DNA of 35,050 nucleotides from Kiloniellaceae bacterium (GTDB taxonomy: Bacteria > Pseudomonadota > Alphaproteobacteria > Kiloniellales > J153). The position numbers and the translations under genes are program-made. The stretch is taken from the NCBI GenBank assembly GCA_021776055.1, contig JAJFGP010000076.1:1-35050 (forward strand), read 5' to 3'. The notes under the pieces are model-generated. The model was not told the DNA's origin. It did not search any database and worked only from the letters and a program-made list of their open reading frames with translations. Numbering within the stretch: the first letter of the stretch is position 1; every line of letters starts with the position of its first letter. Shown one piece after another: positions 9,318-13,808 of the stretch.

Positions 9318-9678
9318 TGTTGGATCGTCCAAGAATTTCTTTGCACTTAGAACCCGATCCGAGCCAATCACTGTACAACCTGAAAACCGGCCCGGTCCCG
9401 TCAGGCAAGCGCCATTATATGGACGGCACCGGTACGCGCAAACGGGCCGGCGCATATTCCGAATAACTTTATTCCACTCAAATTGCGAGCAATCCGCCGA
9501 GCACTCAATCCCCTTGGTGATAACCGAGGTGAAAGCTTCGCCCGATCTGGATCAGGTCTTGTAACAAAGCTGCGGGTTTTCCCAGCCACCGGAAAGCGTA
9601 TAGCTTATCAAGATCGGGATGTAGGCTGCAGCCTTCCGTTTCGGTCGTGTTGAGCCGGGCGAGGAAGTGATTCTGCCG
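9318..9678. other. Divergent intergenic region, no gene seen
   Basis: 361 bases between the oxygenase fusion (minus) and the LuxR-type gene (plus). Open frames here are short and lack family features. Promoters for both neighbours should lie here, but I see no pair of hexamers convincing enough to name. No strong hairpin or repeat was found. Confidence 0.6.
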
Positions 9679-10806
9679 ATGGCACGAGAGGCGAAAGTTC
9701 TCGACGTTATTGAACACGTCTATTCGGCAGCGCTGGATGGCGAGCGGTGGCCGCTGGCGCTGACTGCGCTTGCCGACCTCGTCGGTGGCGTTGATGCAAC
9801 CCTGGATGCCCGTGGCGAGGTCTACACCCAACCGCTGTTCTTTGCAGCCGGCAATAGGCTGCCTCGCTTGGAGGTCGAGAACTACCTTAACCACTACGCT
9901 CGGATTAGCCCGCGTATTCCCTATATCCAAACACTCGCCAGCGGCAGCGTGTGTCATGATTACGATTTCATATCTGAACGGCAGATAGACCGTAACGAGT
10001 TCTATTCAGACTTCCTCGGCCCCGGGGGTCTCCGCTATGTTGCAGCAGGAGTTCTAATCAACCGGCCCGGCAATCTGAGCGCGGTGGCTGTCCATCGCTC
10101 GCCGAGCCAGGGACAACCCGACGCATCCGACCTCTCGATCCTGCGGCGGCTCGTACCGCACGTGACTCGAGCGTTGGACCTTCATTTTCGTCTCGAGAAA
10201 CAGGATGGGCGTGAGAAGCGTTTTCAATCCCTGATCGACCGTTTGCCTCAAGCCATCATCACTCTCGATGATCGGGGCCAGGTCCAGTTTGCAAACGAGC
10301 CGGCGGCGGCAGTCCTAAGAAAAGATGATGGAATCAAGCTGCACGGTCGCCGACTTCACTTTGCCGATGCCACGGCGAACAGACAAATGGCCGCGGCGCT
10401 CAATGATTACCTCAAGGGCGGCGCGGACGCGGGAATTTCGAGCAGTGGTCAAGTCGTGGCGCGCCGACCCTCCGGTCGCCCCGCTTTTGTCCTGGCCCTG
10501 CATCGCCTCTCAGGAATTGGCGCTGTCTATGAGGACTCCGTCACCCCTGCCATCGCCGTATTCATTTCCGATCCCGAGATGTCGGCACAACCCCGCACTT
10601 CAGTGCTGGCACAGGTTTTTTCATTGACGCGGCGCGAAGCCGACCTCGCGGTTGCCCTGCTTCAAGGCCGGACCCTGCGCGATCAGGCGGATGCCCGCGG
10701 CGTCAAAATCTCGACCGAGCGCAGCCATTTGAAGTCGCTGATGCAAAAGACCGACACACACCGCCAGACGGATTTGGTGCGTCTGCTCGCCAGTTTCGTC
10801 GCCTAA
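9679..10806 (+). CDS. LuxR-type transcriptional regulator with PAS-like middle
   Basis: A 375-residue regulator. Seen: an N-terminal helical region (1-150) that resembles the sensor part of alphaproteobacterial LuxR-like proteins, a coiled segment (about 160-190, HFRLEKQDGREKRFQSL), a PAS-like stretch IITLDDRGQVQFANEPAAAVLRKDDGI (about 195-222), and a C-terminal GerE-type HTH (FSLTRREADLAVALLQGRTLRDQADARGV...HLKSLMQKTDTHRQTDLVRLL, about 310-370). There is no response-regulator receiver domain and no recognisable acyl-homoserine-lactone domain, so the signal is unknown. Start: a GTG at 9667 directly abuts GAGGAA, too close to use it as its ribosome site; the ATG at 9679 lies about 12 bases after it and is preferred. 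It may control the lipoprotein genes that follow, which is inference from position only. Confidence 0.8.
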   Translation: MAREAKVLDVIEHVYSAALDGERWPLALTALADLVGGVDATLDARGEVYTQPLFFAAGNRLPRLEVENYLNHYARISPRIPYIQTLASGSVCHDYDFISERQIDRNEFYSDFLGPGGLRYVAAGVLINRPGNLSAVAVHRSPSQGQPDASDLSILRRLVPHVTRALDLHFRLEKQDGREKRFQSLIDRLPQAIITLDDRGQVQFANEPAAAVLRKDDGIKLHGRRLHFADATANRQMAAALNDYLKGGADAGISSSGQVVARRPSGRPAFVLALHRLSGIGAVYEDSVTPAIAVFISDPEMSAQPRTSVLAQVFSLTRREADLAVALLQGRTLRDQADARGVKISTERSHLKSLMQKTDTHRQTDLVRLLASFVA

Positions 10807-10971: not shown

Positions 10972-11097
10972 CCATGACATTGCCCTTTGGTTTGAAGTCA
11001 ATGCTTTGGCACAAACCCTGGAACCCTCGATTTCTTAACGAGTTGTAAATAGACCGCAGGATAATCGATCCCCTTGGCAATACCGGAGAAGAGAGGC

Positions 11098-11730
11098 ATG
11101 GCAAAGGTTTTCAATCGCCGGGTGCGGCCGCTTGTTGCGGTTCTGCTCGTCTTGGCGGCTACAAGCCTGCTGGCTGGTTGCAGCGGCGGCAAGAATCCGA
11201 GCAAGGCTATGCTCGATTTATTCGGAATTGGAAACACAGACGCCGAGCGGGAATCAAAAATCCAGAAAGAGATGAGCCGCCTGCGCGGTGTATCACCTTT
11301 TCAGCTCGGGCGGACACATGGGCAAATGGACGCTAGGCCATTGGCTCTTCCTGGTGGAGGTTACCGTCCCTGGAGCGGCCAGGAGCCGTCAGAGTCCGAT
11401 TTGATCGCGGCGGAGGCAAGACAGAGAATTGGCGAGGAGCTGCCCCTATTCAACGGGCAATACGACGACGGGTTCCGTGCGGGGTGGCAAAACGTTTTCA
11501 ACGGAAGCAATCCGTCCTTAAACATCCTAGATCGGGACAAGCGGGGGTTGGCAATGCGCGTTGCTCGACGCGATTTCGAGTTAGGGAATTTCTTCAATCC
11601 CGGCCGCTACGGTTTCGATGAGACCTATACCGAGATCTACCGGGAGTCCTGGAATCTTGCGGAGGAGGCCGCGGCGCCTGTATCCGGAACGGTTGGGTTC
11701 AGTGATGAGAGTCCGAACCGTGGCGACTAG
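11098..11730 (+). CDS. Lipoprotein, paralogue of the gene at 12303
   Basis: A 210-residue lipoprotein. Seen: basic start, hydrophobic stretch and lipobox LLAGC with the lipidated cysteine at residue 28. The mature part carries ESKIQKEMSRLRGVSPFQLG, then SDLIAAEARQRIGEELPLF, then GQYDDGFRAGWQN, then RRDFELGNFFNPGRYGFDE, and ends SDESPNRGD. The same blocks in the same order occur in the protein at 12303-12854, so the two are duplicates that have drifted apart; this copy has an extra segment (ARPLALPGGGYRPW). I do not recognise a named family. The ATG at 11098 follows GGAGAAGAGAGG and is preferred over one at 11074. It leads a run of three small lipoprotein genes separated by 92 and 57 bases. 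Confidence 0.8.
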   Translation: MAKVFNRRVRPLVAVLLVLAATSLLAGCSGGKNPSKAMLDLFGIGNTDAERESKIQKEMSRLRGVSPFQLGRTHGQMDARPLALPGGGYRPWSGQEPSESDLIAAEARQRIGEELPLFNGQYDDGFRAGWQNVFNGSNPSLNILDRDKRGLAMRVARRDFELGNFFNPGRYGFDETYTEIYRESWNLAEEAAAPVSGTVGFSDESPNRGD

Positions 11731-12245: not shown

Positions 12246-12302
12246 CGTCGAATCTCCCGGGCCGGTGCCATCCGCCGACATGGAAACAAACACGAGGCAG
12301 TG

Positions 12303-12854
12303 ATGCAAATACCGAAAACCTTCCATTTGTCCCTATTCCTGGTCGTCTTGGGTTTATCCGGATGCAACACGATAGCATCCAACATCTTCGGAAACGCGCC
12401 GGGAGAGCGGGAAACCAAGATCCAGGAGCGAATGAGCGAACTGCGCAGTCAGTCTCCCTATCAAGTCGGGCAGGAGAGCGGCTTCTTGGACGCCATAGTA
12501 GAGAATGGGAATGCAGCCAAACCGAGAGAATCCGACCTAATTGAGGCCGAGGCACAACGAAGAATTAGAGAGGAGTTGCCCCTTTTTACCGGGCAGTACG
12601 ATGACGGATTCAGTGCTGGATGGCAGAATGGTTTGGAACAGAGGCACCTCAACGACCAACAGACAAGGCAGCTAATCAGCCGCATCGCGCGGCGCGATTT
12701 CGAGGAGGGGCACCTGTTCAACCCCGGACGGTATGGTTTCGACGACCAGAATATCGACACATACCGAACCGCATGGCAAAACGCCGAGGAAGCGGTAACA
12801 CCCGTTTTCGGGACGACTGAGTTCAATGATGAAAGTCCCAATCGGGGCGATTAG
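12303..12854 (+). CDS. Lipoprotein, paralogue of the gene at 11098
   Basis: A 183-residue lipoprotein with lipobox LSGC (cysteine near residue 21). It shares with the gene at 11098: ERETKIQERMSELRSQSPYQVG, SDLIEAEAQRRIREELPLF, GQYDDGFSAGWQN, RRDFEEGHLFNPGRYGFDD, a Trp-containing helix (YRTAWQNAEEA) and the NDESPNRGD end. The predicted body is mostly helical and charged. No named family is recognised. The ATG at 12303 has GAGG 5 bases upstream; a GTG directly before it would add one residue. Function unknown; an outer-membrane or periplasmic anchor role is inferred only from the lipobox. Confidence 0.8.
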   Translation: MQIPKTFHLSLFLVVLGLSGCNTIASNIFGNAPGERETKIQERMSELRSQSPYQVGQESGFLDAIVENGNAAKPRESDLIEAEAQRRIREELPLFTGQYDDGFSAGWQNGLEQRHLNDQQTRQLISRIARRDFEEGHLFNPGRYGFDDQNIDTYRTAWQNAEEAVTPVFGTTEFNDESPNRGD

Positions 12855-12908: not shown

Positions 12909-13133
12909 TCAAGCCGCGCGGGTCTTACCGGGCTGTTTCGCCTTGCGCGTTGGCGTCGCTACGGCCGGCGCGTCATCGTCCACCGCCCCCAGGCTCGCCC
13001 GCACACGCTCAATCAACTGGCGCACCTCGCTCTCGCCCGTGTGGTCGCCCTGCATCAGAAGGCGAACAATGGGGTCGTGGAGTACCTCATCGAGGGAGGG
13101 TTCCGTATTAGACGTTTCCCAAGTCGTGCTCAT
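12909..13133 (-). CDS. Small conserved-looking protein, 74 residues
   Basis: Seen: a short acidic start, then LDEVLHDPIVRLLMQGDHTGESEVRQLIERVRASLG, which reads as two amphipathic helices, and a lysine/alanine-rich tail (TRKAKQPGKTRAA). It is cytosolic by composition, with no signal peptide. AGAGGA about 8 bases before the ATG at 13133 supports this start over the longer reading to 13247. I believe similar short proteins with a DEVLxDPIVRxLM core occur in other alphaproteobacteria, but I cannot name a function. It is divergent from the HTH gene at 13548 across a 414-base gap. Confidence 0.7.
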   Translation of the reverse strand: MSTTWETSNTEPSLDEVLHDPIVRLLMQGDHTGESEVRQLIERVRASLGAVDDDAPAVATPTRKAKQPGKTRAA

Positions 13134-13374
13134 TATTAAGTCCTCTTTCAAGTGCGCGACCCTTGATCCCCTTAATCGACTTCCTGGCTGCGCCAGCCGA
13201 CCCCAAATCCAGTGTTTGTAGGGGTTGGAGGTTGCTTGTGCATACAAGCCGAACCTGACCCGCCGATAGTCCGGACATTAAACGACAAGTGTAGCAGTCG
13301 CAAGTAAATACTTATCTTCAATTTGATACATAAAGTGACTACCTTAGTGTGCATCGGTTGCTTTCTCTAATTTA

Positions 13375-13391
13375 TAGGACGATCCGCCCTA
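13375..13391. promoter_or_regulatory. Operator-like site 1: TAGGACGATCCGCCCTA
   Basis: 17-bp imperfect palindrome, arms TAGGaCG and CGcCCTA. It matches site 3 at 14 of 17 positions. It lies 45 bases upstream of the -35 hexamer, where an upstream activator or cooperative repressor could bind. Confidence 0.5.
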
Positions 13392-13419
13392 TTCGGTAAA
13401 ATCGACACCGGTGATTTTG

Positions 13420-13447
13420 TTGACTCTAGGGCCGGTTGGCCTAATAA
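13420..13447 (+). promoter_or_regulatory. Sigma-70-type promoter of the small HTH gene
   Basis: TTGACT (13420-13425), 16 bases, TAATAA (13442-13447). Both hexamers are close to consensus. Transcription would start near 13454, giving a leader of about 94 bases before the ATG at 13548. The spacer is filled by operator-like site 2. Confidence 0.6.
13427..13443. promoter_or_regulatory. Operator-like site 2, between -35 and -10
   Basis: TAGGGCCGGTTGGCCTA, 17 bp, with the same TAGG-N9-CCTA frame as sites 1 and 3. It fills the promoter spacer and overlaps the first bases of the -10, a classic repressor position. Confidence 0.5.
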
Positions 13448-13455
13448 CCTTCTGT

Positions 13456-13472
13456 TAGGTCGTTCTGCCCTA
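13456..13472. promoter_or_regulatory. Operator-like site 3, just after the transcription start
   Basis: TAGGTCGTTCTGCCCTA, 17 bp. It differs from site 1 at only three positions and starts within a few bases of the predicted transcription start. Site centres are 52 and 29 bases apart. Confidence 0.5.
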
Positions 13473-13547: not shown

Positions 13548-13808
13548 ATGGCACGAGAAATAGCCCAGAGTCGCCCGATGGATGCAGCCGAACTGGCCCG
13601 GCATTGCTCCCGCCTATACGGCGCGCGCCGGTGGCAAACGGCTTTGTCTCACGAAATTCAGGTCAACGACCGGACGGTGCGTCGATGGGCCGCGGGCGCC
13701 TCACCGATCCCGCAGTCGGTCGCGCTATGCGTCCGTCTGATGGTCTTTCTCGATGAGCTGAGCTGGCTCGGAGAATGGCGCAAGATGCTGGAGGAAGAGG
13801 ACCTCTAG
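13548..13808 (+). CDS. Small helix-turn-helix DNA-binding protein, 86 residues
   Basis: Seen: helical throughout, with AAELARHCSRLYGARRWQTALSHEIQVNDRTVRRWAAGASPIP; the part QVNDRTVRRWAAG has the look of the second and third helices of an XRE/Cro-type HTH. A hydrophobic helix (VALCVRLMVFLDEL) and a short charged tail follow; the helix could be a dimer interface. Function as a transcription regulator is inferred. A stop codon lies directly before the ATG, so no longer reading exists; the nearest ribosome-like AGAGG is about 15 bases upstream, farther than usual. The promoter ahead of it carries three copies of one palindrome, so self-regulation is the simplest idea. It ends 14 bases before the convergent M20 gene. 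Confidence 0.75.
   Translation: MAREIAQSRPMDAAELARHCSRLYGARRWQTALSHEIQVNDRTVRRWAAGASPIPQSVALCVRLMVFLDELSWLGEWRKMLEEEDL

Follow-up and report, generated by a model that had tools for sequence, protein, structure and literature searches.

Three copies of a 17-bp inverted repeat stand at the promoter of a gene for a small helix-turn-helix (HTH) protein, and they are very probably the operators of that protein. The reading that we favor, at a probability of about 0.8, is that the HTH protein binds the sites, represses its own gene and controls a small regulon that includes a putative small RNA (sRNA). The case is made by sequence comparison over the window (the whole stretch of 35,050 bp analyzed here), the remainder of the genome and 98 relatives. 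The control region contains the following features:

13375 to 13391, no strand assigned: putative operator site 1 (distal), TAGGACGATCCGCCCTA, by exact match
13420 to 13425, plus strand: predicted -35 element TTGACT, from the sequence and the promoter ranking
13427 to 13443, no strand assigned: putative operator site 2, inside the -35/-10 spacer, TAGGGCCGGTTGGCCTA, by exact match
13442 to 13447, plus strand: predicted -10 element TAATAA, from the sequence and the promoter ranking
13456 to 13472, no strand assigned: putative operator site 3, at the predicted transcription start, TAGGTCGTTCTGCCCTA, by exact match
13548 to 13808, plus strand: 86-amino acid HTH protein, the proposed site binder, from the ORF, orthologs, alignment and AlphaFold2 model

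Exact matching placed the three TAGG-N9-CCTA sites where the preliminary description had put them. They span 98 bp and are the only matches in the window, for which 0.09 would be expected by chance; none of 100 shuffles contained three. A weight-matrix scan of the whole window scored above 7 only at sites 1, 2 and 3, on which the matrix had been partly trained. What had been said of the promoter is also borne out. TTGACT and TAATAA are separated by a 16-bp spacer that is filled by site 2, with the last two bases of the site overlapping the -10 element. Site 3 begins 9 bp past the -10 element, which is the expected start of transcription, and the promoter reads into the 86-codon HTH frame. The distance from site 1 to site 2 is 52 bp, as it is in genome G001 (53 bp in G002), and the 29-bp distance from site 2 to site 3 is repeated in G001, G002 and G005.

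The neighbors of the HTH gene are a divergent small ORF upstream and a convergent M20 peptidase gene downstream. The divergent ORF (12909-13135, minus strand) lies upstream of the operators and might share their control region. A 65% identical copy is found beside the HTH gene of G001, and there is no counterpart in the other fetched loci. Elsewhere in the window, the plus-strand ORFs at 11074-11730 and 12300-12854 look like paralogs with lipoprotein-like starts, both ending in DESPNRGD, and a 379-amino acid protein encoded at 9667-10806 has weak PAS and LuxR-type HTH matches.

The promoter geometry recurs in other genomes. The HTH promoter of G001 has that of the window, TTGACA-N16-TAATAA with a site within the spacer. 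The Pelagibius-type genomes have, by eye, a TTGNNN -35 element, a 17-bp spacer with a diverged site, and a -10 element starting at the TA of CCCTA. The promoter ranking puts this site-filled promoter first in G040, G042, G050, G056 and G057, second in G054 and G055, and outside the top three in G044. G003, G004, G006, G007 and G008 have one site before the HTH gene and no clear promoter. Since a site lies in the -35/-10 spacer across genomes, occlusion of RNA polymerase would be the simplest reading at the HTH gene's own promoter. The HTH protein, presumably dimeric, would bind the 17-bp inverted repeat TAGGGCA-N3-TGCCCTA, and protein bound to sites 2 and 3, which cover the spacer, the -10 element and the start, would block the polymerase. 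Such negative autoregulation is well supported by the geometry and is the best-supported step in the proposed mechanism. Site 1 would add cooperative binding, which is plausible because the spacing of the sites is fixed. We infer from these arrangements that the HTH protein is the binder and represses its own gene, and that it does so as a dimer and cooperatively.

In the genome as a whole there is no enrichment of the bare pattern: TAGG-N9-CCTA has 22 matches in 3.72 Mb, versus 63 for the pattern read backwards. The bare pattern alone proves nothing; the signal is in the clustering and the inner bases. By a matrix whose consensus is TAGGGCA-N3-TGCCCTA, 15 of the 22 matches score at least 17.9 and stand in arrays or before genes, and seven score at most 11.5 and are scattered in a chance-like manner. 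This split is partly circular, in that the 61 exact regulon sites used to train the matrix, drawn from several genomes, include most of the 22. The preliminary description had named many random matches outside promoters as a refutation, and the good sites prove to be grouped before genes and not scattered. The seven low-scoring matches and the commoner reversed pattern are what could be said for taking the repeats as chance matches or as a mobile palindromic repeat (REP/MITE-like) instead of operators. We regard that as highly improbable. A chance origin is rejected on the shuffles, the score split and the co-occurrence of site pairs with the HTH gene (below), and reversed control pairs are few (0-3 per genome) and unrelated to the HTH gene. 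A mobile repeat is rejected because only the 17-bp sites recur, and across different genera they keep their spacing and precede the same genes. An apparent second array at contig C164 was set aside; both of its flanks match the end of C137, and the two are read as overlapping contigs of strain variants.

A single copy of the HTH protein stands out clearly in the genome (E = 5.9e-55; the next match has E = 0.04). Matches appear in 22 of the 98 relatives, comprising 21 orthologs at E ≤ 3.3e-29 and a distant one in G088. The latter and a second match in G055 are paralogs with no sites and are excluded from the 21. The orthologs that carry names belong to Kiloniellaceae MAGs and Pelagibius species. 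Counted within the order, 21 of 61 genomes have the ortholog; the order-wide repeat of the search covers the same genomes and adds no independent evidence. Comparing the upstream regions of the orthologs, another check proposed at the outset, showed that 17 of the 21 keep exact sites in the 500 bp before the gene. In G040, G042, G044 and G056, the sites near the HTH gene carry one or more mismatches. All 21 upstream regions reach a matrix score above 7 in at least one place, which is again partly circular.

Pairs of sites with starts 23-53 bp apart are found in eight of the 98 relatives; all eight are among the 21 with an ortholog, and none are among the other 77. The chance of this co-occurrence is 1.3e-6 over the 98 genomes and 7e-5 over the 61 of the order, but both figures ignore phylogeny and overstate the case, since seven of the eight genomes are of one family and so are not independent. 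We take the position of the sites beside the HTH gene to be more telling than these statistics. In three genomes of another family, g6 (G009, G016 and G023), the single strict TAGGGYN5RCCCTA in the genome adjoins the HTH gene. A relaxed pair pattern was run on 31 chosen genomes, 21 with the HTH gene and 10 without it. The four matches in Pelagibius-type genomes (G040, G050 twice and G054) are all at the HTH gene, none of the 10 HTH-less genomes has a match, and G008 has two matches away from the gene. Strict sites, one or two per genome, also occur in several HTH-less genomes, and the one strict site of G042 stands away from its HTH gene.

If some other transcription factor bound the sites, the HTH gene would be merely one more target. 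Any regulon member conserved with its sites would co-occur with them, and three genomes also have a CheY-like receiver (below) as a target. However, the HTH gene is the most widely kept target; the only strict site in the three g6 genomes and all the relaxed pairs in the three Pelagibius-type genomes are found there; and the gene encodes a DNA-binding fold, whereas Pfam shows no DNA-binding domain in the receiver. We consider another factor unlikely and retain the HTH protein as the proposed binder.

The alignment of the HTH protein with its orthologs is conserved from near residue 11 onward, and for that reason Met11 may be its start codon. The AlphaFold2 model (pLDDT 89.6) has helices at residues 13-24, 29-37, 41-48 and 56-85, forming an HTH and ending in a long helix. 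It has the compact helical bundle with an HTH unit that is a Cro/C1-like (XRE-type) trait, and no evident signal-sensing part. The structural matches listed are mostly HTH regulators, though with weak Foldseek E-values (best E = 0.14), and HigA2 and Aca2 lead. In VIA-align 2, the top match is SO3848 (2ox6_C, Z = 8.5 over 76 residues, rmsd 1.3 Å) and the second is Aca2 (7ezy_A, Z = 8.2 over 72 residues, rmsd 1.6 Å), with Z-values near the level that a common arrangement can yield. By sequence, the match to Aca2 is not significant (E = 0.41). Matches to family models are all weak. HTH_3 of Pfam is found in two of 17 members at E = 0.009, and other HTH models are found weakly; the window protein itself matches only HTH_21, below the cut-off of that model. 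NF040522 of NCBIfam (VC1465, Xer recombination activation factor) matches nine of the 17 members (best E = 0.00022) and YdaS (PF15943) matches four (best E = 0.00045), and neither is among the matches listed for the window protein. As to a phage origin, a tblastn search with the HTH protein against phage records gave only three partial matches, at less than 60% identity.

The best structural likeness to the model is with Aca2 and its relatives YdiL (1S4K) and SO3848 (2OX6). In the Aca2 structure paper (PMC8434428), Aca2 is a small HTH autorepressor whose inverted repeats overlap the -10/-35 elements, and a role as a chromosomal regulator that stands alone and has distant targets is raised for YdiL. 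Site 2 in the -35/-10 spacer is, by sequence, likewise an inverted repeat overlapping the gene's own promoter. The HTH protein differs in lacking the C-terminal dimerization domain, its 86 amino acids aligning to about residue 73 of chains of 117-124 residues. It also differs in being chromosomal, in standing alone and in having apparent distant targets, including the sRNA. We presume that it works like an Aca-type autorepressor, yet we do not file it as Aca2 because the C-terminal part is missing. Overall we favor an autorepressed regulator of Aca2-like fold that has a small regulon. The proposed regulator is new but of a known kind.

The autoregulatory switch proposed in the preliminary description is supported at the HTH gene itself by the sites kept near orthologs and by the grouping of good genomic sites before genes, but the same arrays also precede other genes, including that of the small RNA. 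In the window's family, arrays whose neighboring sites are 24 and 29 bp apart, or whose outer sites are 51-53 bp apart, recur in such positions. The HTH protein would bind these distal arrays of two to four sites, in which the 51-53 bp spacing would appear where the middle site is degenerate. The OR region of phage lambda has 17-bp operators in threes, about 24 bp between neighbors, and a regulator acting at its own promoter. The likeness extends to the triplets of 17-bp sites, the spacing of about 24 bp and the single regulator at its own promoter. The differences are that neighboring sites here are 24 and then 29 bp apart (52 and then 29 at the window's HTH gene) and that the arrays are repeated at several chromosomal genes.

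Besides the sRNA of about 145 nt, the regulon would include a membrane protein of about 90 amino acids, a CheY-like receiver and an 87-amino acid protein. A membrane protein of about 90-110 amino acids is encoded behind arrays in G000, G001, G003 and G005 (assigned by eye in G005), the receiver (PF00072) in G000, G001 and G005, and the 87-amino acid protein in G000 and G001. The receiver ortholog in G006 has weak sites only, and that in G045, a genome without the HTH gene, has none. A paralog of the 87-amino acid protein with 35% identity (L007:293-520, G000 C39) lies more than 2 kb from the nearest site, a low-scoring one. An isolated high-scoring single site, TAGGGCAAAAAGCCCTA (L010:3195-3211, G000 C75), precedes by roughly 90 bp what by eye is a putative lipoprotein gene of the minus strand, a possible further target.

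Promoter-like elements and a terminator mark the putative sRNA gene, along with a conserved CTGCCC...GCACATCGCAC stretch; the terminator and the conserved GCACATCGCAC are present in nine of nine sequences. A model built from six array-linked copies finds the sRNA in all nine genomes of the family at E ≤ 3.4e-19 and gives no convincing match outside the family among 58 genomes. Matches at E = 0.001-0.05 in G046 (two), G011, G030 and G037 have no upstream sites and were dropped as chance. A second match in G000 (C131) begins at a contig end and looks no different from the C10 copy throughout its length. Six loci, from six of the nine sRNA-bearing genomes, had no Rfam match in cmscan at E up to 1, and a known RNA family is rejected for these loci on that scan. 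In the predicted structure, three of 14 pairs show changes on both sides. In G000 and G006 (L005 and L089), the sRNA gene is near a gene resembling 4-hydroxyphenylpyruvate dioxygenase, as named by eye.

Some copies were found by the model independently of the sites, and of these G003 has sites at 24 and 29 bp and G004 has two sites 52 bp apart. The copy in G008 has a contig end 57 bp upstream. Eight copies have upstream sequence, and in all of them the distance from the start of a site to the modeled RNA start is 99-195 bp; in seven of the eight the spacing is 24 then 29 bp toward the gene. About 50-60 bp separate the nearest site from the -35 element downstream of it, so direct occlusion would be unlikely there; the distance would fit activation, or relief of silencing, better.

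The HTH protein may instead be a repressor everywhere, its distal arrays silencing both the sRNA and the rest of the regulon, for instance through exclusion of an activator or by nucleating a spread along AT-rich DNA. The Aca proteins, which are the closest folds, are described as repressors in PMC8434428. By eye, the -35 and -10 elements of the sRNA promoters are good and these promoters look strong without help, and many regulon arrays are in AT-rich stretches (up to 0.74 AT). On the other side, the nearest sites are too far from the sRNA -35 element for simple occlusion, and no array site overlaps the core sRNA promoter. We hold general repression to be a serious possibility, somewhat short of an even chance; it concerns only the sign of regulation at the distal arrays, and its probability overlaps that of the main reading. 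Judging by distance alone, activation there would be slightly favored over silencing. A tentative and more novel picture, to which we give somewhat less than an even chance, is of a tiny switch protein of Aca2 fold, with no evident sensor domain, that would repress itself and, through operator triplets of fixed 24 and 29 bp spacing placed about 100-165 bp upstream, activate the sRNA and a few small-protein genes.

Literature searches on binding sites of Kiloniellales regulators found another regulator only and nothing on this system, and those on palindromic TAGGGC regulons in alphaproteobacteria and on small RNA in Pelagibius found nothing. The present analysis assigns a DNA motif, a proposed regulator and a small regulon in Kiloniellales. 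The RNA family is absent from Rfam at the threshold used and has a strongly conserved core, so that a direct search for its RNA targets is possible. The HTH protein, small and Aca-like, apparently stands alone on the chromosome as a regulator of distant targets. If the tentative picture is true, Kiloniellales would have a hitherto undescribed chromosomal switch, in which a phage-type repressor has come to regulate an RNA circuit from a distance.
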